From the NCBI RefSeq assembly GCF_025024155.1, contig NW_026251809.1, forward strand, positions 1-64,000: 64,000 bases of DNA. Direction: 5' to 3'. The translations under genes were made by a program, and so were the position numbers. The DNA is from Gamsiella multidivaricata. Its lineage: Eukaryota > Mortierellomycota > Mortierellomycetes > Mortierellales > Mortierellaceae. How positions within the stretch are numbered: position 1 is the first letter of the stretch; each line of letters starts with the position of its first letter. Below the pieces are notes generated by a model. It made no database searches. It was not told the DNA's origin and saw only the letters and a program-made list of their open reading frames with translations. Below, in pieces: positions 22,842 through 47,907 of the stretch.

Positions 22842-24396
22842 GTGGGTTGCCTACCACTCCCTCGTCCGAACAGAAGTTTTGATGAATCACTCCATGGTCC
22901 ACTCGACGCAAGCTCAGCAGCTCCACTGACCCCAATTAACACCTCCTCAACACCCATTCGAATCATCGGCGTTACTGCTTTTCCTCCCATGGGCATTATG
23001 CCTCCACCAACACCGATATCTCGTTCTCGAAAGACCAAGATTATCAAGGAGATCCAGAAGGCCAAGCGTTTCTGGCAAACCGCCAACGGACGCATTTCTT
23101 CGACTGACCTAAAGCCTTGGCTGGGATTTTTGGTGATGTACCGGCGAATCGGACGTGTGTATCTCTACCCTAGCCTCGCCTGTGTATGCCGCGGCAAGCG
23201 ACTCCGACTATCTTTCCACATGGCCGACACTCTCTTCCGACAAAGCCCCCAGAACAGGTCTGAGTTCCAACGCATCAAAGTCTCGATCGATATCCTTCAA
23301 TAGCTTGCTCTCAATGCAGTGATGTGGATCGTAGGCGGTATAATCACAAAAAATGACTACGTCAAGAATGTGAGAGGTTACAGCCTCCTCAAAAATATCC
23401 AAGTGCTAAGAAACATCCCAAATGCGCATGGCCTTACAATGCCTCATCTTATGTAGGAGTATTGCAACGCTACAACGAGTAAGCTGAAATTGCCGAACTC
23501 ACATCCGACCAGTCATTGCGACGCCATTTTTGACATCTTCTTCCTGAAGCACGAAGTCCAGACTATCTTCGATCCGGACACTCGTTTCGTTCCAATGGAG
23601 TTTGATGGCATAATGTACGACGCTGTTCTGGAGGTGGACGCGTTTTTGGCACAGTTCAGGGCTATGAGACGTCGGCATCTCACATCGGCTTCGCCCCTAA
23701 TCCTCCTGCCACACAGACAACGCGGAATGAGAACATGGTGCCGAACCAGTAGCGAATCAAGACATACCAAACTCCACCAACCCCGACTCAAGCACCCGCA
23801 CCAGCCACTCTAATGCCAACCAAAGCCAACCAAAAAGAGAAAGCAGAAACCGAAACCCATATTCAACCCGTCGTCCAGACGTGCGAGAGCCATTCCCTCT
23901 GGGACCGTTGGCACGGACACATTCAAGTCCAGGAAACAAGCAACCATCATGGACACGACTTTCAATGTCATTTCCGGGACAGTTGTATTGGACTGCGGCA
24001 CTCTTTCGGCAAAGCTGAGGATCGGTTTGTCCGAGGTCATGGATTCTGACGAGACTGAACGGGATCGGTTCCACAAGCACGTCGTTCACACAATCCAAGA
24101 GGTGGTACGCGCTGCGACAGACGCAGTCAAATACGCTCAGCGGGCGATTACGGCGTACATTGGCGCTCTCACGGCTCCCCGCCCTGGTCTGACACGATCA
24201 AACATCGACTACGGGAGGGAATAACTTGTCCAGCTTAGCGGCTTCTGCAATAGTGCCTTTTTCCAAAACATCCTCAGCGATATCATGACCATCCATGACC
24301 AAGGGGACACAGCATTAAGAGGCCCACGAGCGGATATCATGGTCAATGCCTGTGTGAGGGAAATAGCAAGGAGCTACAGATGTATCCATTTCAACG
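22842..24396 (+). pseudogene. Decayed gene of unknown family, interrupted by a mariner insertion
   Basis: Protein-like segments occur along the plus strand: RSRKTKIIKEIQKAKRFWQT near 23020-23080, IFDPDTRFVPMEFDGIMYD near 23565-23620, and a longer frame from 23949 with ISGTVVLDCGTLSAKLRIGL and FHKHVVHTIQEVVRAATDAV. That frame meets a TAA at about 24222 and then continues open in the same frame (QLSGFCNSAFFQNILSDIM, VNACVREIARSYRCIHFN) up to the left end of the mariner element at 24399. Beyond the element the frame stays open for about 35 codons. The in-frame stop plus the insertion mark it as a dead gene. Family not recognised. Confidence 0.4.
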
Positions 24397-24398
24397 TA

Positions 24399-25027
24399 CA
24401 GTCACCTAGCAAAACTAATTGGTCACTTTAATTCTTCTAGCCATGGAGCAAATAAATACATCTTCTCTTCAACACGACTTTCCTTCTCCAAGCACAATCG
24501 ACAGCAGCTTGAGTAACCACCTTGGAAGATGGCGCCCCAGTGTAAAACTGCGCGCTGTCAAAGAATTGGCACCAAGCATATGGCTTTCGCAAGATAGAGG
24601 ACTGGCCAGCCAATTCCCCAGATTTGAACCCCATCGAGCATGTCTGGTCCCTCCTTGGTACCGCCCTCAATCGACGACAAAGACAACCCCGGGACATCGC
24701 AATCCTGGCGATAGCTCTAATTGAGGAATGGAATGCTACCACAAGAACAGCTGGCAAGGCTGGTTGACACGATGACCCAGAGACTGAAATTCGTGAAAAA
24801 GTACAGAGGTGGAAATGGCAGACATTGAACGAGCCGCAACCCTTTCCTTCAGCATACACCATCCTGACATTCACCAAGGATATTTCCCTAGAGCTTCTCG
24901 ACAGACATGAAGGCTTCCATAGCGACTGCATACCTTTTTAGGTGCGTTGTATATAGGTAATTTGAAAAAGAATGCGAAAAGCGTGGATGAAAATTAAAGT
25001 TGCCCAATAATAATTGTTAGGTGACTG
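24399..25027 (+). mobile_element. Tc1/mariner relic with terminal inverted repeats and TA target site
   Basis: Left end CAGTCACCTAGCAAAACTAA and the reverse complement of the right end, CAGTCACCTAACAATTATTA, match over roughly 38 bases (both continue TTGG-CACTTTAATT with few differences). A TA dinucleotide flanks each side, the signature of Tc1/mariner insertion. At 629 bp it is internally deleted. Inside, the C-terminal part of a DDE transposase is readable: GAPV near 24528, then SPDLNPIEHVWSLLGTALN with the final acidic residue of the DDE/D triad, then LARLVDTMTQRLKFVKKYRG after a frameshift. Stops and shifts show that it cannot make transposase; it could only have been moved in trans. Confidence 0.85.
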
Positions 25028-25313: not shown

Positions 25314-25778
25314 ATGGGCATCCTGGGCTTGTGGCCCTCTCTTAGAAGGAAAAGCTACGAGGCAGCTCTCTTAAACACCTTTGAGCCCGGTCGTAAGCGT
25401 CTTATCGACGTACAGACGTGCATTTTCTCCACCATTCGCTGCACATATTCATCATGCGCCGTGGACGACGAGGTACACCTAGTTGCCGAGCGTAAACTGG
25501 GAGGGCTTGCGACTTTCTCAAACTCGGTTCTTTACCTGGATGGCTCTCCAGCAGAAAAGATACTCACTCACAAGCAGCACAAGCAGCACAAGCAGCACCG
25601 GCGCCAGCGCCAGCAGCTAAACCCCTTCGATCAGCGCCACGCCGAGCCAAGATCAATCTCTTGGCCCCAAGAGAGCCAGCTCAACGCAGGGGGCAACGGA
25701 AAGGGTGCGGGAAAACGCGCGCGCAGCTGTGTGTTCGCAAGCACACTATTTCCTACCGATTGTGGCGGCCAGGTTTAA
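25314..25778 (+). CDS. XPG/FEN-like N-terminal (PIN-type) protein, truncated
   Basis: 154-residue ORF beginning MGILGLWPSLRRKSYEA, the N-terminal signature of the XPG/FEN nuclease superfamily in the form expanded in Mortierella-like fungi. It continues with RLIDVQTCIFSTIR and LGGLATFSNSVLYLDGSPAE, the latter corresponding to the strand that carries a conserved Asp in the PIN fold. After residue ~95 it degenerates into KQH repeats and a basic tail and stops; the XPG-I domain with the remaining acidic metal ligands is missing. It is therefore a truncated or pseudogenised member and unlikely to be an active nuclease. A related start is found at 41522. A CT-rich leader precedes the ATG. From 25779 to 26008 I see no feature. 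Confidence 0.5.
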   Translation: MGILGLWPSLRRKSYEAALLNTFEPGRKRLIDVQTCIFSTIRCTYSSCAVDDEVHLVAERKLGGLATFSNSVLYLDGSPAEKILTHKQHKQHKQHRRQRQQLNPFDQRHAEPRSISWPQESQLNAGGNGKGAGKRARSCVFASTLFPTDCGGQV

Positions 25779-33460: not shown

Positions 33461-33734
33461 AAGCAGTTTTGCACTGTAGTGTAGATCTTTAGTGTCGACA
33501 GGGTTGAGACTGCGGCCATTGTACAGATCTGGTCAGGGTCAATACCAAGAGTTGCTGCTTGGTGTGCCGGGGGATGAGGCTGTTGTCCTGTGAAGACTTG
33601 CGGCATTTGATAATCTTTTGTTCGGCTAATTTAGAAGGCATCGTAGGTTGTCCCTGTCATTTCGATATCTGTGAGCGTTCCTGTACCTATAGGCGACTGC
33701 AGGGTTGCTTGGTCATCGCGGTTGACCACGAAAG

Positions 33735-37900: not shown

Positions 37901-40426
37901 AGCGTATAGTCGGAGGTGGAGCTCGCGACTAATGAGGCATGAGACGACTTTGCTGGGAAATACCTGAAGCGACACAGAGAAGCTGGTTTGTTCCTGCTCT
38001 GTCAGCTCATCTAAATGAATCGTGCTGATATCATCCTGTCCAAGAATGAGCTGGCTGGAAGAAATGAATGAACGATCTTTTATGGCGGGCTGAGAAATCA
38101 CTTGTTGTAGTGCTTTTGAGCCGTTCCTGGGTAACAAGGGTAGTCTGTGCGACGACTGCGGTCCTGAGTATCTAGCGCCGCTCAGCTGCTTTGAGACCCC
38201 AGTCGAGGACGATCTGAAAAGAGGCGCCGGTATCTTTCCTGAATAATCGCCCCTTCCCGCCCTGTCTAGATCAGAGCTGCTATCGCTGGGTGCTGAGGAG
38301 CTGCGATTCAGGACGGCTGGAGGAAAGATGCTTCGGCGACTGACAGGAACCCGCCGTCCATTGGTCCCGATGCTGCTGATCGGCAGACTGCATGCCTCAG
38401 CAGAGACTGATATATTGCTAACTGAAACGCTCTATAGTACCCAGAGAAGACTAGTCGTTAGCCGAATGGTCCGATGTGCGGTCGAAACACATGTAGCCCA
38501 TGAGTCTTGCAGCGCTGCAGCAATAAGGTACCTTCGAAGCAATAAGTGACTTCTCATTATCGTTCTCCTCGTAAATCACGTCCGACCGTGCCAAAGAGAC
38601 GACGGTGCTTTCATCTGTTGCAGTGATGACAAAGCCTCCCTGAGACAGCTGAGTGTTCATCCTTGCTTTCACAACTACAACCTTAGTCTATGGTACATAT
38701 GGTACATAAGAGCTAAGTTAAAGCTATTTCTAAACAATTAGGTTGATGAATACCACCAGCTTTGACGTATTACCTTCAACTCCTGTGCCAGATCAAAATC
38801 ATCATTTTCAGCAGCTTTGTGCTTCTCAATGTTCAAGGTCTGAATTTCGTCCGCAAACTAGTGACATGTCAAGCATCAGTATCCGTGGCCAGGCTTAACA
38901 CTGTGAAAAACTGAAGCGATCTTACTACTCACCTTTACCGTCTCCTCGTAACCAGCTTTATACAATTTTGCAGACGCGAAGTCCTCCACTAACAAAAGAT
39001 GAGAGAATATTCACGACCGTGAGCATCCAATGGCATCCAAATGCTAATCAAACTAAGAGCAACGTCTGGTGCCTACCCTTTACTGCGTCCTGCTTTGCCC
39101 TGACGAACCCCACTATCAGTTTCTCTACATCTTGATCCATGTAACTGGCTGGCTGATCCTTTATTTCCGCTATTGACAATCCCCGCACTGCATCCGACAG
39201 GTTGGGGACTTCAAGAGTCTCCAAAACTGGAATCGAAGAGTGTGGAACCGTTGTCTCTGTAAGTCCCTGACCTGGTCCATTCACGACCTCGAATTCGTTG
39301 AAATCCAAGCGTTCCGATTCTCCTTGCAGCTCATCTTCAAGTGTCTCGCCCAGCACATTCAACGCCAATATCGCAACTTGATGGTAGATATTGAGAGGAT
39401 TCACATGGCACTGGCGAATGACGACACGTAGATACTCGCCCTCGACATCGACATTAATCGATTTCAACTCTCGCCCCGAGAAGTTGGAGGCAGTGTTGCT
39501 GTCAAAAGAGATGGAGCCAAGTTTTTGAAACTGCAGCACTGGCAAATTCTTCTTCCTGGCATCCACTCTAGGGACGAGATCAAGTCCGGCATCCTCGTCC
39601 TCATCCTCATATGCGCCATCGTTGTTTCCATAGTTGTTGTCATGATCGGCATTAGTGTTCCCATCAATGAGAGATTGACGTCCTGTGGCATCTGCGTTGA
39701 TGGACTGAACACCTTTCCTCGAGCCCATCCAAAAGTCCAGCCTGCTCGCAATCTTGTACTGGTGGGACAAGATCTGAATCTTTCTCACCCTGGAGTGCCC
39801 ACATGAGAATCGCAGCACCAAATCCTGTGGGTAGCTGCAGAATCTAGATGGCGATTTAAAAAGAGATGTTAGATGCGCATTCGATGACCACGATGCCATT
39901 CTCGGAGTATTCCTGTAGTTTACCTTGGAGTGTGCCATCCTTTACCGGAGGAGGTGTGCATTAGTCCGACAAGCTCCTCTGGTGAAAATCCTTTGTCCCA
40001 TCCTGAAGCCATTTGAATCTCATACGGAAGCCGCTGGGGTGTCAGAACCATGAGATATTCCTGAAGTGCCTGAGCATTGCTCTGCCACGGGGCTCCTGTG
40101 TGGCTGTCACGGTCTCGTAGTGAAACGATCAATTGATCGTCCGCGCTATCCTCTGAGCGCTGTCGCAAAGAACCAAGGGACCCAGCCAAGAAAGGCACGC
40201 TACTTTGATAGAATATAAATCGTCAATTGGTGGATTGTAAATGGTCGCACTTTTTGTTACACTGTGAACAATAGGATTGAGGTGTAAATGTGCGATTAAT
40301 GGTGTTGAGGACTTACGCTCGCGAGCGACCGATGAGCGACCGCCTGCGAGGGCGGAGACGGAGGCTCGATGCAGGCTTTTTGGAAGACTGGACATGCGTC
40401 GCTTCGTAGGTCGTAGGAGGTCTCAT
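34951..40426 (-). CDS. CEP104: CEP104/FAP256-like microtubule plus-end protein with TOG and zinc fingers
   Basis: CEP104 (FAP256 in Chlamydomonas) sits at ciliary tips and centrioles and binds EB1 and tubulin. First exons are 40426-40317, 40199-39924 and 39843 onward, joined in phase; about 16 exons in all. Seen in order: N-terminal beta-sandwich (GWHTP|RFCSYPQDLVLRF, RKIQILSHQYKIASRLDFWM, GRELKSINVDVEGEYLRVV), coiled-coil exons (EDFASAKLYKAGYEETVK, HKAAENDDFDLAQELK), HEAT/TOG repeats (LEPIFSLLLIKASDLNTRV, VRIATRKLIIDVCKFLS), then the CEP104 zinc-finger array (CVFCDERNNAFTDEGLVVHY, HMLKECSKRKFVKQCETC, RCPLCQNILPCNDEAEWKEH). Near the C-terminus GSGSRIPKL gives an SxIP EB1-binding motif, as in human CEP104 (SKIP). 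The final exon junction is uncertain: reading through adds a hydrophobic segment, splicing at SSNSG|GTAGG avoids it. Assignment is firm from domain order. Confidence 0.85.
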
Positions 40427-41521
40427 AGCGAGTGCGTAGGAGGAGGCGTGGCAGGAAGAGGGCTAGAGATGCAAAGTGGCACAAAGAGGATCCAGAGGCC
40501 TCACTTTGTGGTCTCTGTCGAGCGTTGCCAGCAGGGAGGAGAGAGATGGCAATGAGGACTTGGATGTTGGAGTATAGGATGGATGGATTAACAGAACAAA
40601 GAGACAATGGATTCCACTCTATTGTCATCAACGTGAATATGAAAGAATAAGAAAGACAAGGGCAGAGCAGATAACTGAGCGTGCACCTGCAGGTAAACAA
40701 AAAGGCCACGATGCATGCACTGCATGTAATAAACCATAGTCCACCCATCAAACCCGCCAAAAACAAACAAACAAATAAACAATAGCGACTTCCCATTTGT
40801 CTTTGCAGCTCATATCCCCGCCAATGGGTTGTATAAGCTACGTGGAAAACATTGCCGAGGGCACTCATTATTTTGACATTTAACGGGTATCATCCAAGGT
40901 TGTTCAAAATGGGAACAATTGTGCTTCAGAGTCACAGAGATGCCCTTTCTCGCCTCTTGTGTCGTCTCGTCTTCTTTTGTTCGTTCGTTCTTCCGCAGCT
41001 CTCTTTCCGCCTCACTGCTGCTATTACCATTATGGACCAAAGTGGGCGGATAGAGATATTTAAGCTGATTACGGTTGATCTCCCGTCATTTATTTGCTCT
41101 CTACTCTCCTCTTTTTTTATCTCGCTCTCTTTTTTGTTTCCTTTTCGTCTTGCTCTTGCACGTTGGACTAAAAAGCCCGATCGTGCGATAGTTGATAATT
41201 CTATCCTTGTTGTTCAAACAACCGAAGGTTTTGTGCGAACGATAAGTCAGCTGTATAAACTATTGATCGTCCGTATTAGGTTAGATAGTTTTTGCCGCCA
41301 ACCTGACTTGATCAAGTGTTACTCAGGGGCAAGCAGCCAGCCAACAATGTACTGTGCTGGTATCCTGGAGGTTTTTGGCGAAAGGGATTAGGGCTCTATC
41401 CATGCCCAAACGAGCACTCTTCCTCTCCTTTCCCCTTTCCTCTCTTTTTTCAGGTTTCTTTGATCACCACCTCTACACCGAACCTCTATATCTGGCGACC
41501 TCATGTTTTCACAACTCTGCG

Positions 41522-41650
41522 ATGGGCATTGGCGGCTTGTGGCCTTTCCTGAAAAAGAAAGGGTATGAGGCTACTATGCGCTTTGAACACTCTGTTCTCC
41601 CCAGTCCTTTTTATAGCGGCCCGATGCGTCAAGTAGACATCAAAAAATAA
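41522..41650 (+). pseudogene. XPG/FEN-like N-terminal stub
   Basis: ORF starting MGIGGLWPFLKKKGYEATMR and stopping after 42 residues (VDIKK, stop). The start is the XPG/FEN N-terminal signature also found at 25314, but everything after the first strand (V-D-I) is missing. Only 26 bases separate its stop from the first codon of the Fanzor-like pseudogene, so the two may derive from one locus by internal deletion, or the stub may be an independent relic. From 40427 to 41521 I see no gene apart from the CEP104 promoter side and a CT-rich leader. Confidence 0.5.
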
Positions 41651-41676
41651 TAATAAAGAAGAAGAAGAAACCGACA

Positions 41677-44080
41677 ATGAGTGCAACGAGTAAGAAGAAG
41701 ATAGCGGTGAAGCACATGCGGAAGATCAATATGGTCCGTGCTCTGTAGCAGGAACGTCTTACATTAACCCTCGATATTAAAACTCTATTCGCTGAACGTC
41801 AACAGGACTTGGACCAAGAACCCGATTTGGCGTCCGAAGCGCTCGGATGTGTCCAGGAGGCTGTCCTCCTCTCAGCGAACACCAAGTGATCCTTCAAGCA
41901 ACTTGTTGGTTGATTTATTAAGTGTGTTACTACTTCAGACATCTTCAAGGAATTGGATCGAGAACCGTTAGACCATATCTCTGTGACATCTCTATTCGTG
42001 CGAGCCCCCTGGCAAAACGTGGATTGGCCAATGCATCCAGTGCATGCAACGCTTCATCGGTCGAGCACAGGACCTGGGCCTGCTGGACATAGGGAATGAA
42101 GCTGCAATAAGGACGAGAATATCATAGCCAGGATCGACATTGCTGCGATCCGCTGCCTCTCAGTTCTCAAATGAGTTCAGGTGAATCTACAGAAACAGCA
42201 CCTTGGAGCTATATGAAAAGGTAAAGAGTTTTATTGACTTTAGTTCCAGCTGAGGTTTAACTCAGGGAGTAATTTAAGAGAATACAAAGTTAACAGCATT
42301 AGCTTTCGCTATAGCAGTTCAAGACTCATAAGAACAAGGGGCTATTATCAGATGAGCGCAGCATCAAGAGCCGTTGCGACTTCTCGGCCATCGAAAATTT
42401 TATCCACTTAATCCAAATCAGTAAAAACCTTCGGAGGCTCGTTTCTGTAGCGCCTATCAGCCAATCTTTCGTCTCATACTCGGAAGTGGAGCTGCTCCAG
42501 ATCTTTTGACAGAGCGAGGTGCTCAATAAGATACTCAGGGTGCTAATTAGAACAACGAGTTATGCTCCTGCGCTTTGAGACGCAGAATACTGGCTGGCCG
42601 GCCAAGAACCAGAGTTCCTCGTTACAAGGCTGCTCACAAATGTAGGACAAGGTGAATCCAAACGGCGTAAGCCAGGATCCCCGAAACCGTACAGGAACAC
42701 AGCAACGACGATGCCCTTGAGCGAAGTTCAACAGTACTTTATGTTCATTCGTCAAAGTGACTTCGATTCCAGTACCTACACCAAACGCGACTATCTCCTC
42801 TGTGGATCTCTTAGGACTGATAGTTTTCATCCTCAAGTACTCACCTTCAAGCTGAAGGAGCTGTAGTCAGTTCGATACAGGCGACTCCCCAAGAATGTTT
42901 TGTCCCTTCGAACCACATCCACAATCGGAGGAGTGGATTATTACTTGACCGAGGTCCGAAACACTGTGAAGACCCAGCAGGATGTTATCGACCTTTGGGA
43001 ATGTGCGCCCGATTAAATCAAGGTCCTGGGTCTCGATTTCGGCCAAGCCTGTGTAGTCGGAACCGGTGCGTTGCTACCAAAGAACGATGGTCCTGCCAGT
43101 ACGACGACGGGACCTGGAAGAAAGGATGATGATGTCGGCATGAGCAGCTCCTCCGAGGATACAACCCCTACTCCCGTTCCTGTCACCTATTACAACCTCG
43201 CAGTGAAACAGAAGACAGTGTACCAGCCCACGCTCATGCACAGAAGATGGATGGAAGAGCAAAAAAGCATCGCTCCAGGCGACGGTATAGAATCCATCAA
43301 CGACATCGAGACCAGCTTTGCGAGCTATGTTACGGAGCTGGAGAGAGTAGAGGAACAACTGAATGAGTTTTACAACAGCAACAACCGGTTCAAGAAGCAT
43401 AAGTGGGGCGCGAGAAGGGCCAGAGATGCGGAGTACAGACTCATAACGGATCGCCTACTCAAGTTGGTCGGAGGATCGTTCGGTAGAAAGAGAGAGGAAG
43501 CCAACAAGATTGTGATTGGGGTTGGTCTAGGCAAGCTTTCGACCAAGACGAGACTTTCCTCCTTGCACGAGTCCTTTCTGTCGTACTTTGTTCAGAAGGC
43601 AAGAACACTATCACAAAGTTATATAAAATCGTTCTATGTTTTTATTGACTTCGTCTTGATGTCCTAAAGGCCAGGTCCCTAGGCTACATCGTAGTTGGAG
43701 TGAATGAGTACTTGTACTTCGAAGAAGTGCCCGACGTGCAAGGAGTTTGTCGGACAGGTCGAGATCCGCAGGCAATGCTGATCAACCTGTGGCACTTTCA
43801 TGCACCGCGATATTATGGCAGGGCACAACATTTGCAACGTCGTTCGCAGCCATTTAGTCCATCAACAGCGACTGCTCTATCTTCAGGCAGTAGATAAGGA
43901 CAGGCACTGCCCTTAGATGCAAGATGCAAGATCGTACACAGAAACCGGGGGCAGTAGCAGCAGCGGTAGCGCAGTGGGGCAAGGGCAAGGGCAAGGACGA
44001 GCTCGAGGACGCAGGCGAGCAGCCTCATCCTTGGAAGGGGATGGACTGTCGCACTCCACAGTTCAGATGCAGTACTCTCT
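41677..44080 (+). pseudogene. Fanzor-like (TnpB-related RuvC nuclease) pseudogene
   Basis: Fanzors are eukaryotic RNA-guided nucleases related to transposon TnpB. Readable parts: N-terminal LTLTLDIKTLFAERQQDLDQ and TSDIFKELDREPLDHIS (frame from 41677, with stops at 41746, 41887, 41905); frame change, then from 42351 IENFIHLIQISKNLRRLVSV and VGGVDYYLT-type segment (IGGVDYYLTEVRNTVKTQQD); RuvC-I core IKVLGLDFGQACVVGTG with the catalytic Asp (43022-43071); KIVIGVGLGKLSTKTRLSSL; a 71-base GC-AG intron (43599-43669); ARSLGYIVVGVNEY; after a one-base frameshift the zinc ribbon TSKKCPTCKEFVGQVEIRRQ, C, an in-frame TGA, S-T-C; and RuvC-III MHRDIMAGHNICNVV with its Asp. A Gly/Arg-rich tail follows to about 44080. 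At least seven stops and two frameshifts show that it is dead. Family identity is strong, exact N-terminus uncertain. Confidence 0.75.
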
Positions 44081-44290
44081 TGCAAGGATGTGTTCTGTGA
44101 CGTATTTGAGCCTGAATTGCTCTGCACTCGATCTAGGATTTTGTTCCTCGTTCTTTCAGCTTCTATTGCCTTACAGGGCACAGCACGCTCCAGTAGCACA
44201 CCAGACCAGAGAATTGCGACTTGACACTGAATCGGATCAACTCCTCTTCATCCCTACGTTCTCTCCCACTCATCACCACATACCATCATC

Positions 44291-46536
44291 ATGTAAGTCT
44301 CGCGGCATGTTCCTCGCACCACCCAAAAATATTCTTTTTGCAGCGCCAGCTCGATACCTCTATGCACCAAACGCCGTTCCCTGGCGCTAAAGCTGATCGG
44401 TACCCATCATCACCATCAAAGAAAAAAAAAAAAAAAAAAAACACGCTATCTGGAGATCTGCTTGCAGAAACAGTGAAACGATATCACTTTACAGGGAACA
44501 CCATATGGACACAGATGTGCCTCGGCATCATGTTTGATAACTTGCGCTGACTGTGCGGCATTCCCATCGCGACGTTCAATAGGTCTGGAGGATCAGCTGT
44601 TTCTCTCATCAACCCTAACTCGGAGGTCGCTCGCCGTGGCCAAGCTCTGCAGCTGAATATCAATGGTGCTGTTGGTCTAATGGAGGTCGTTCGTTCCAAC
44701 CTCGGCCCCAAGGGAACCATCAAGATGCTGGTCAGCGGCGCTGGCGATATTAAGCTGACCAAGGACGGCAAAGTTCTCCTCAGCGAGATGGTACGACAAA
44801 ATATATACCCTTGCTCAGCTTTGATGTGCTGTTCTTTGCTCATGTATACTAGCCTGGTCTCTAACGCGTCTCGTTTCATTGTCCCTGGATTCGATGGAAA
44901 CCGATTTGATGCTGCTATCAGCAAATTCAAAACCCTACTGCCGCCATGATTGCCCGTGCAGCAACAGCTCAGGATGAGATTACTGGAGACGGCACAACTT
45001 CGATCGTCATGCTCGTCGGAGAATTCATGAAGCAAGCGGAGCGTCACATTGCCGAAGGTCTTCATCCTCGCATAATCACAGAGGGATTCGAGCTCGCGAA
45101 GAAGGAGTCTCTTAAGGTACGTTACGCTCGACCACAAGCTCCACAAAGTATAGAGCCATCCATGTATTAGTTTGAAATTTAACGATGACTTCCATCTTAT
45201 TGTCGTCACTCAATAGTTTTTGGATACTTTCGCTGTCAAGAAGGAGATCGATCGTGAGCTGCTCATTTCTGTTGCTCGCACTTCACTCCGCACCAAGGTC
45301 CACCGTGCCTTGGCCGACACCCTTACTGAGGCTGTTGTGGATGCCGTTCTGACCATTTACCGCGAGAATGAGCCCATCGATTTGCACATGGTTGAGATTA
45401 TGGCGATGCAGCACAGGAGTGAAACCGACACTCGTCTTGTCCGCGGATTGGTCATGGATCATGGCGCCAGACATCCCGACATGCCCAAGAAAGTTAAGGA
45501 CGCATATGTCCTCACCCTTAATGTCTCCCTGGAGTACGAGAAAAGTGAGGTCAACTCTGGATTCTTCTACAGCTCCGCGGAACAGAGAGAAAAGCTGGTC
45601 GAGTCAGAGCGCAAGTTTGTGGATGAGAAACTGAAGAAAATTGTGGAACTTAAGAAGCAGGTGTGCGGCGACTCTGGCAAAGGCTTCGTCATCATCAACC
45701 AGAAGGGCATTGATCCCCTGTCGCTGGATGTCTTGGCAAAGAACGGAATCTTCGCTTTGAGGCGCGCCAAGAGAAGAAACATGGAGCGCATGCAGCTGAT
45801 CTGCGGAGGTATCGCCCAAAACTCTGTCGATGATCTTTCACCTGAAGTTCTCGGATGGGCTGGACTGATCTATGAACACACCTTGGGTGAGGAGAAGTTC
45901 ACATTTGTTGAGGATGTCAAGGACCCCAGCTCAGCAACCATTTTGATCAAGGGTAAGAGGGCAGGCGGTATCATGTGCGCATATTCCGTCTCGTGGAAGA
46001 TGTCTTAACCGCCTTTGAACAATCTATTTATTATATCTTAATTGTGCGACACGGCTCTAGGTCCTAACCCTCATACGATCCATCAGACCAAGGATGCCAT
46101 CCGCGATGGTCTCCGTGCTGTTAAAAACACTTTGGAGGATGGATTGGTAGTACCGGGTGCCGGTGCCTTCCAGGTCGCTCTCCATTCTCATCTTCTCAAA
46201 TTCAAGGATACTGTCAAAGGTCGTGTCAAGGCCGGTATCACGTCCTTTGCTGAGGGCGTTTTGGTCATTCCCAAGACACTGGCCTCAAACGGTGGCTTCG
46301 ACCCTATGGATGTGATTGTGACCATGCAAGAAGAGTACGCGGATGGCCATATTGTTGGTGTTGATCTTCAGAGCGGAGAGACGCTGGATCCCGTTGCAGA
46401 GGGCATCTGGGACAACTACCGTGTCGTCCGCAATATGGTGCAGAACGCGTCCGTGATTGCCACGAACTTTTTGCTAGTGGACGAGATGATGCGAGCTGGT
46501 CGCTCCTCGCTGAAGAACGATAATCACATGGAATAA
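44291..46536 (+). CDS. CCT6: T-complex protein 1 subunit zeta (chaperonin CCT6)
   Basis: Subunit of the cytosolic chaperonin that folds actin, tubulin and other proteins in an ATP-driven double ring. Predicted exons: 44291-44292 (A-T of the start codon), 44583-44790, 44922-45116, 45217-45952, 46061-46536, giving 538 residues (yeast Cct6 546). Motifs: [47 protein letters not shown], the ATP site [79 protein letters not shown]-terminal [13 protein letters not shown] and [10 protein letters not shown]. The start was chosen because AT|GTAAGT joined to TAG|GTCTGG restores ATG-TCT-GGA in frame with the conserved N-terminus; no other in-frame ATG precedes it in the second exon. Intron 1 (290 bases) contains an A19 tract. 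Confidence 0.93.
44293..44582 (+). other. Intron splitting the CCT6 start codon
   Basis: Donor GTAAGT directly follows C-A-T; acceptor TTCAATAG precedes GTCTGGAGGA. Joining gives AT+G. The intron is longer than most in the window and holds an A19 homopolymer around 44420-44440. Confidence 0.65.
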
Positions 46537-46710
46537 GTTGGTTCGCCGGGCGGAACCACTCAAGGGACCCAGGGGTTGTGTAGATTCATCGTGTCCAGAT
46601 CAGGAGACAAACAGTAAAGTCGTATACAGCGAATTTTTTTTTTTTATATGTAAAGTACATGTAAAGATGACATATGGTACAATGATCCGAAGGATCAACT
46701 AGAAGAAGGC

Positions 46711-47907
46711 TCAATCTTGGAAGCAATCCATCATGGCATCGAGAGGGTTTGAAGGATGAAGTCGTTGTCGCTTGCTGGCGTCTGCATCTAACAGAAGATA
46801 AGGTAGCACAGACTGTTAACAGGAACTCTGACAGCCCAATTCATTTGTTCAGGTGAGCGCATTTAAATGCACCGTACCTGGAGTCGCAGAGAGCATTTGA
46901 TGCTTTCGCTTGGCCGAAAGGACATCATGTCTCGAACTCAAGATGCTCACCAGCCTGGGCACTGTTGAAATTCGTAGATCGGTTTAGTGCTCCATTCTCA
47001 CTATTTGACAGCTTGACAATATAAACAGACACAGCACCCCGATACATACAAATGACCTTCATTCTTTCCAGCTCCTGAATGACATGCGAGTCTGGAGACA
47101 GAATGTTTTTTTGTATTTCTCCCGCATCCAGCCTCCTAATTTCGGTCCGTAGTGTCTATGTAAAGAGAGTCGAATTAGCATGCAGAAGAAAAGTTGGCTG
47201 AAGCAGAAGGAATCCTTGAGTGGTCTCTACCCTGTAATACTCGTGTTTGTCTTTCAACTCCTGGTATCTGGTCTGCATCGCGACAATCCGGGACCGTAAA
47301 TCTGCATACTTTTGTAATCTAGACAGGCTCGGAGTCGGAGCTAGGGGTGCGATGGATGATGAATACAACGAAGGGTCATTCGAGGTAGCGGAGAGTCCCG
47401 CTTCATCCTGGTGTTGCTGCCATGTCTCTGGGAACATGTCGATCCAGTCCGACTCAAGAATTTCCTGAGCGCTCTTTGTCCTGATGATGACACCTCCTTG
47501 CCGCGCCTTCTTGCGGAGCTCATACTGGTTCGCCTCCAATTGCTCTAGCATCTGACGGATAGATTGACTGTTAAAGGTCATACGCGAAGACTTTGTGCTG
47601 ATGGTATGCACTATGAGATTTGGAGGCAAACAGGATTTTAGTCGTGCTTTCGAGAGAAACGAACAGGCAATTGACCATCTCCATTTATCTGAAGCAGTGA
47701 CAAACGTTTTGACAAGACAGCAGAGACGACGCCCTCCGGGATGGAAGTATGGGCCTCGCCCCTAGCGTTCAACCGTGCCCGATGGTGTCTCCAGTCAGAC
47801 GGCGGTTGCATGGGTGTCTCCAACAGCCTGACCTGAGCGTTGATAAAAGCCTTTTTGTCGTGGTAGTACCGTCCCTGACCGACAAGGGTATCTCCATGGG
47901 TGGTCAT
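46711..47907 (-). CDS. fta4: Kinetochore protein Fta4 (CENP-U-related)
   Basis: Fta4 belongs to the inner-kinetochore Sim4/COMA-type network that links centromeric chromatin to the Mis12 complex. Five exons, 47907-47676, 47610-47231, 47155-47050, 46961-46878 and 46787-46711, join in phase to 292 residues. The family signature KAFINAQVRLLETPMQPPSD-W with IPEGVVSAVLSKRL near the N-terminus, then MTFNSQSIRQMLEQLEANQY, SDWIDMFPETW, and a coiled-coil region (LSRLQKYADLRSRIVAMQTR, YQELKDKHEYYR) are seen, as is a basic C-terminal part (LSAKRKHQML, ASKRQRLHP). The spliced junction VILPRLVSILSSRHDV was selected over a nearby alternative donor that leads to a stop. It converges with CCT6 (175 bases between stops) and diverges from PCF11. 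Confidence 0.85.

Follow-up and report, generated by a model that had tools for sequence, protein, structure and literature searches.

A decayed Fanzor locus of Gamsiella multidivaricata points to a FEN1–Fanzor fusion lineage multiplied in Mortierellaceae

The window analysed here is a stretch of 64,000 nucleotides of Gamsiella multidivaricata (Mortierellaceae; contig NW_026251809.1, C4:1-64000), taken from a genome of 37.5 Mb in 180 contigs. It carries the remains of a gene for a Fanzor, an RNA-guided nuclease of eukaryotes, which are preceded by a short N-terminus of XPG/FEN1 type and followed by a terminal hairpin (table 1). An earlier note, drawn from the letters alone, had described a disabled Fanzor relic at 41677–44080; this span proved too short at both ends, as the XPG-type N-terminus lies to its left and the right end beyond it. 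Very probably, the locus is a copy, decayed and with an internal deletion, of a transposable element of Mortierellaceae which, in better-kept relatives, encodes an XPG/FEN1–Fanzor protein.

Table 1. Features of the relic and of two further fragments (positions are those of the window; E, expect value).
Feature	Position	Strand	Remarks
XPG/FEN1-type N-terminus	41522–41641	+	40 codons, MGIGGLWPFLKKKGYE...VDI; 47.5% identity to P0128 residues 1–40, E = 7.9e-7 (tblastn, 3.5-kb target)
Fanzor N-terminal part (linker/REC), first frame	41599–41979	+	4 stops; tblastn, P0127 residues 375–494, 44%
Fanzor N-terminal part (REC), second frame	41987–42226	+	2 stops; tblastn, P0127 residues 539–615, 52.5%
Fanzor WED/REC + RuvC, third frame	42315–43664	+	tblastn, P0127 from residue 613, 49%
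Open frame carrying RuvC-I	43017–43664	+	216 codons
RuvC-I, GLDFGQACVVG	43029–43061	+	catalytic Asp codon 43035–43037; DFG, not DPG; from alignment of relatives
GYIVVGVNEY	43682–43711	+	relocated RuvC-II Glu codon 43706–43708; frame other than that of RuvC-I
Zinc ribbon (TNB) + RuvC-III	43713–43832	+	PF07282 match; CPTC starts at 43728
MHRDIMAGHN (RuvC-III)	43800–43829	+	Asp codon 43809–43811
C-terminal tail	43832–44030	+	HLVHQQRLLYLQAVD, then low complexity
Right end, terminal hairpin	44056–44129	+	ends GAATTGCTCTGCACTC; most conserved core 44082–44129
Second XPG–Fanzor relic	23116–24386	+	XPG 23116–23708, Fanzor N-part 23931–24386
Third fragment, XPG N-terminus only	25314–25559	+	MGILGLWPSLRRKSYEAAL...VLYLDGSPAE

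The Fanzor part, from approximately 41599 to 44030, can be followed in three frame segments with 44–52% identity to P0127, a predicted protein of Dissophora globulifera. With this protein as the tblastn query, the third-frame segment reached E = 0.0 on a 3.5-kb target and the search of the whole window E = 2.9e-174; after filtering, the first segment in the whole-window search was 41707–41979 (E = 9.8e-16), its unfiltered start being of low complexity and overlapping the XPG stub in another frame. The best E-values from 20 block-shuffled windows were 0.1 (P0127), 0.54 (P0128) and 0.057 (P0146). The readability against P0127, together with shuffles doing no better than 0.1, thus indicates a real, badly decayed gene. 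Indeed, the frame is disabled, as the earlier note had held: 16 stops were counted (4 + 2 + 10 in the successive segments), some of them within an intron-like out-of-frame stretch before GYIVVG; a frameshift separates NEY from TSKK and puts the ribbon and RuvC-III in a further register; and the third ribbon Cys of the relatives is replaced by a stop at 43779–43781. The 40 XPG codons, whose start is common to P0123, C120x, C93x, L034 and others, give way to the Fanzor N-part, the remaining XPG domain and the linker being gone. A Pfam scan of three open pieces of the window returned one irrelevant match (E = 0.12).

All four motifs singled out earlier (GLDFGQACVVG, GYIVVGVNEY, CPTC and MHRDIMAGHN) were located in the window copy, and the Fanzor reading built on them was upheld by the ribbon profile, by homologues with the same order of motifs and by the folds of relatives. 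The profile search that the note had proposed placed the ribbon in PF07282 (Cas12f1-like_TNB; 26.5 bits, cut-off 26.3). The RuvC catalytic triad D-E-D is found in the order I-II-III both in the window (Asp 43035, Glu 43706, Asp 43809) and in the relatives, where ungapped rows of alignment A4 show Asp in 45 of 46, Glu in 23 of 25 and Asp in 25 of 26. Canonical TnpB proteins carry the RuvC-II Glu approximately 50 residues before the zinc finger and Fanzors six residues before it. The relatives read NEYYTSKKC, with six residues separating Glu from the first Cys, and the window agrees save for the frameshift between; this Glu, which had been proposed as the relocated catalytic residue, is invariant in 12 aligned relatives (A1). 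In the same alignment no invariant Glu was found at residues 626–694 of P0033 (first ribbon Cys at 701), leaving the canonical TnpB position unfilled. The ribbon pattern CxxC...CxxC occurs in 12 of 12 members of A1, a count that is not independent since A1 was picked from proteins listed with a TNB domain. AlphaFold models of two relatives match SpuFz1, GtFz1 and PpFz1. By sequence profile none of the solved Fz1 chains was recovered; the top-scoring match was the mimivirus TnpB-like protein L79 (E = 3.5e-4, ribbon only).

The published Fanzor fingerprint, which its source calls near exclusive rather than constant, combines the relocated Glu with a RuvC-I motif DPG. The window copy, with DFG, departs from it, as do most relatives with DFG, DLG or similar: in a pattern search (not an alignment) of 146 proteins, 132 matched, with Leu at the middle position of the RuvC-I DxG motif in 97, Gly in 11, Ala in 10, Pro in five and another residue in nine. 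DPG is carried by P0045, P0078, P0100, P0136 and P0146 and, within this genome, by copies C139, C166 and C126. These three and C115 have XPG and Fanzor exons with the RuvC-I motif IDPGEVYT (IDPDEVYT in C115); the ribbon of C139 starts HEYYTSARCP, and some copies of this lineage bear stops, for example the XPG part of C166. This DPG lineage, present alongside the window copy in one genome, ties the relatives of the window copy with a hydrophobic residue in this motif to the fingerprint Fanzors. Among these four copies (six pairs, computed without stop codons), the ratio of non-synonymous to synonymous substitution rates (dN/dS) was 0.31–0.63 for the XPG part (295–299 codons) and 0.19–0.48 for the RuvC part (170–177 codons), indicating some past constraint on both halves, weaker on the XPG part.

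The Fanzor identity put forward earlier was thus correct and incomplete, Fanzor being only the C-terminal part of a larger protein. The better-kept relatives most probably encode a single polypeptide of approximately 1,180–1,290 residues, in which an N-terminal 5'-nuclease of the XPG/FEN1 family is joined through a basic linker to a C-terminal Fanzor made up of REC, WED, RuvC with the relocated Glu and the zinc ribbon. A search of public proteins gave 166 matches and, among the 120 listed, those named by organism belong to Mortierella and its kin, the remainder being metagenome proteins; P0001, named as a G. multidivaricata protein, shows 99% identity to a copy in this genome across 66% of the query. 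Gene models joining both halves come from eleven named Mortierellaceae isolates: Dissophora globulifera (P0127), Entomortierella parvispora (P0129), Benniella sp. (P0132), Mortierella sp. AD010 (P0128), AD011 (P0131), NVP41 (P0121/P0126), GBA35 (P0122) and GBA43 (P0109), Linnemannia zychae (P0136), L. gamsii (P0124/P0028) and L. elongata (P0123). P0128, P0129, P0132 and P0136 include the XPG start as well as the ribbon; the models of P0126, P0127, P0131 and others begin partway into the XPG domain; a complete ribbon is wanting in P0109, P0028, P0121, P0122 and P0124, and P0123 stops before RuvC-I. The metagenomic P0146 could be aligned to 840 columns of the family profile, covering both halves (E = 1e-33).

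In the relatives (not in the window copy), the XPG half holds the seven active-site acidic residues, which are kept in nearly all rows having them aligned; these positions were assigned by motif and by profile alignment to RAD2, with numbering as in FEN1. The AlphaFold models of the two relatives also match FEN1/EXO1. Within the genome, 115 matches to the XPG part merged to 95 loci, 53 of which are followed on their own strand by a Fanzor ribbon at a distance of 1–6 kb (median 3.27 kb); the three control arrangements gave 2, 3 and 3, and 0.7 was expected. A fusion is the simplest reading of this linkage, of the conserved linker described below and of the gene models, and the architecture of the lineage, as predicted from sequences and models, appears well supported.

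This family is abundant in the genome (match counts are lower bounds): a nucleotide search with window positions 41400–44500 gave at least 66 matches, the 216-residue frame at least 157, and PF07282 at least 109 at E ≤ 0.001, five of these under the family cut-off. The deletion derivatives L012, L034 and L036 retain the right end together with the start of the XPG part, and L012, L027, L034 and L036 have a common breakpoint (C120x, about 2191/4097); a non-autonomous form therefore seems to have multiplied. The 5' half of the window copy is nearest to C95, C90 and C109 (71–76% nucleotide identity) and has no match to the relatives of the 3' half, which is nearest to copies such as C53, C57, C13 and C98 (79–83%, one short piece 87%). 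These affinities suggest that the window copy, over 41677–44129, is a mosaic.

Element ends had not been recognized earlier; the right end can now be set at 44129, and the left end of the window copy was not found. The segment 44052–44131 matches 20 places in the genome, its own included. Where the terminus is kept, copies stop at ...CTGTACTC and then enter unrelated flanks, the window terminus being ...CTCTGCACTC; in L018, L023 and L037 the similarity starts only in the last ~48–60 nt. The last 48 nt of the hairpin recur in 15 aligned copies (window included), and its 5' arm CAGTTCAGATG or a near form is kept in 11 of them. The base following the conserved right end is often T (e.g. L080, L082–L085, L087; G in the window), so that the true end may sit one base further on, or the target may contain T. 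Terminal inverted repeats were not found when the reverse complement of the right end was searched for, either by its first 24 bases in 68 loci (best 17/24) or by all 40 bases in the window (best 24/40). On the left, six distinct copies (C57, C13, C98, C120, C141 and C115) carry the motif GGAAATAGCGAAGCGTATCCAAGTA ahead of the XPG start; a search around the window copy did not recover it (best 15/26).

The last 74 nt form one long hairpin in all five copies folded. In the 15-copy alignment, 9 of the 17 predicted pairs show one-sided changes that keep the pair, and none of 200 column shuffles of a 19-copy alignment was equally stable, although such shuffles are a weak control because they destroy the order of the sequence. 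This hairpin is a candidate guide-RNA scaffold, whose guide would be taken from the flank from 44130 onward, by analogy with SpuFz1, for which PMC10432273 describes a right-end RNA bearing a flank-derived guide.

We tentatively propose a two-nuclease homing machine, in which a guided Fanzor cut and FEN1-type processing would be joined in one polypeptide with a flank-derived guide. The hairpin would be transcribed as an omega-RNA scaffold with its presumed guide from flanking DNA, and the Fanzor half, if active as a nuclease, would cut the matching site lacking the element. The FEN1 half, likewise presumed active, would trim the resulting 5' flap or displaced strand and thereby steer repair toward copying from the element-bearing chromosome. 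End-only deletion derivatives could supply extra guides in trans. The element itself is presumed to be mobile.

Alternatively, the FEN1 half could serve the element's own excision or insertion as a substitute for a transposase rather than process guided cuts. This appears unlikely. In its favour, many copies with shared termini speak for past mobility and the copies read hold no further long domain; against it, FEN1-family enzymes are flap trimmers, and none is known to join DNA. An action of the FEN1 half on RNA or R-loops, such as maturing the end of a guide RNA, is distinctly unlikely, as is its being an idle structural module. RNase H-like activity is known for FEN1-family 5'-nucleases and dN/dS of the XPG part rises to 0.63, yet acidic residues conserved in nearly all aligned rows speak against an idle module.

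Several results weigh against our reading of the locus as a copy of a FEN1–Fanzor element, or against the homing machine proposed for it. The window copy is broken and itself unable to work. The left end of the element is not exactly placed, since similarity continues further upstream in some of the copies with GGAAATAGCGAAGCGTATCCAAGTA. The window hairpin (44057–44130) is no more stable than its shuffles (z −0.14; −1.14 to −1.80 in four other copies), a two-sided change occurs in just 1 of the 17 pairs with 7 cells pair-breaking (15 copies), and Rfam gave two matches over 39000–47000, both below the gathering threshold and both away from the right end. TM-scores of the fold matches to Fanzors are modest (~0.4–0.6, by target length), with large root-mean-square deviations over long alignments, and DFG in place of DPG lowers the claim of strict Fanzor1 membership. 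As for the XPG half, only 2 of 26 distinct proteins, some of them without an XPG part, pass the cut-off of a Pfam XPG family, others showing one below it. No ribbon was matched in the tested place at 42 of the 95 XPG loci, which would be in keeping with decay and with a strict ribbon search. Finally, copies read as DNA across both halves number only eight; relatives with long open frames do occur in the genome, where the earlier note expected active ones, and none of these eight was shown to be wholly intact.

It could be asked whether an XPG-type nuclease and a Fanzor are two separate adjacent genes, fused by automatic gene models. The fused proteins are indeed predicted models, and in the genome each half is split over frame segments separated by intron-like gaps. 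However, the fusion alignment shows a single conserved linker, VFNRYxTVDRPPE...YKYRxRYAIKTRSQLKKHDPPExMKQYQLKPW, which recurs in C93x, C13x and C97x. In C97x the XPG tail, the linker and the Fanzor N-part share a single frame, in which 483 codons contain 2 stops (10 and 22 in the other frames), and P0146 covers both halves; the same path is broken in C13x by two stops in a gap and in C93x by a change of frame. Two adjacent genes are thus improbable. That the locus is an ordinary Fanzor relic, with XPG sequence from an unrelated neighbour or host gene, is highly improbable: the window copy has a 40-codon XPG stub only and characterised Fz1 proteins are mostly of 600–700 residues (PMC11423790), whereas 53 of 95 XPG loci are linked against 2, 3 and 3 in controls, two-domain models occur in eleven isolates, and L012, L034 and L036 have kept their right end along with the XPG start.

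Elsewhere in the window, the second relic listed in table 1 is nearest to the DPG-type P0146 (tblastn, E = 8e-21 and 8e-17), and the third fragment matches P0128 over residues 1–86 (tblastn, E = 6e-10). A RuvC-I-like match at 33487–33567 (E = 0.15) was dropped, as shuffles reach 0.057. The neighbour at ~44.6–46.5 kb presumably encodes a TCP-1/CCT subunit, and a peptide WPANSPDLNPIEHVWSLLG within 24546–24764 resembles the DDE motif of Tc1/mariner transposases. The genome also holds a young, near-identical Fanzor subfamily of ten copies (L050, L052–L060), seven of which (L052, L053, L055–L059, on C12, C140, C121, C62, C88, C33 and C111) lie less than ~4 kb from the high end of their contig and point away from it. 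Telomere repeats were not seen in the pieces read; these copies may be subtelomeric, or their contigs may have been broken at repeats during assembly.

With Fanzor1 (SpuFz1, GtFz1, PpFz1), the family shares the RuvC D-E-D order, the relocated Glu, the TNB zinc ribbon and the fold, as well as residence in an element that is present in many copies, has a structured right end and has given rise to deletion derivatives. It differs in its length (~1,180–1,290 against 600–700 residues), its N-terminal FEN1-family nuclease, its intron-like gaps, a RuvC-I mostly of the form D-Leu-G (also Gly, Ala or Phe) rather than DPG, the failure to find terminal inverted repeats, and the matching of solved Fz1 chains by fold only. 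TnpB of IS200/IS605 and IS607 has the TNB ribbon, the RuvC core and the hydrophobic DxG residue of most relatives; unlike it, the fusion has its Glu in the alternative place, and is eukaryotic, intron-bearing and far longer. Cellular members of the XPG/FEN1/EXO1/RAD2 family are stand-alone repair nucleases, whereas here such a nuclease is fused to an RNA-guided one and multiplied in a mobile element. A 2023 survey of eukaryotic Fanzors in Science Advances reportedly may include Mortierellaceae sequences.

The deletion derivatives are comparable to the 'ghost' Spu-1 elements of Spizellomyces (PMC10432273). PpFz1 of Parasitella has an extra FRI domain, according to PMC11423790 a small cyclophilin-binding insertion in RuvC; it is not a nuclease, unlike the FEN1 half of the fusion. 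PMC11071296 devotes one sentence, on two large-DNA-virus contigs, to 'Fanzor flap endonuclease homologs (Fendons)', pairing the two in name with no domain architecture given, so that a fusion may or may not be meant. BFVD contains Fanzor-like and FEN1-like proteins and, among the 50 matches listed, none was named as both, the longest having 876 residues (by names, not aligned ranges), so that a viral fusion may yet exist; when viral_contigs was scanned with A3, 103 sequences matched the pattern and none of them was confirmed. The literature searched, whose coverage leaves out many journals, yielded no description of a fusion between Fanzor and a FEN1-family nuclease and none of Mortierellaceae Fanzors; 'Mortierell' is absent from the main text of PMC10711439 and PMC10432273, and 'Mortierella' from PMC3627910. 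The combination of FEN1 and Fanzor as two nucleases looks new.

In known Fanzors a single RuvC site cuts the DNA and the ends are left to the host. With a natural fusion to a flap nuclease, if true, guided cutting and the processing of ends would be coupled within a eukaryotic mobile element, which would bear directly on the open question of how Fanzors benefit transposons; such a fusion could also supply naturally occurring components for genome editing biased towards templated repair. Moreover, our results suggest that the DPG fingerprint overlooks a large Fanzor lineage. The importance of this relic lies in the lead it gives to a FEN1–Fanzor fusion lineage that has multiplied in Mortierellaceae and whose architecture is well supported.
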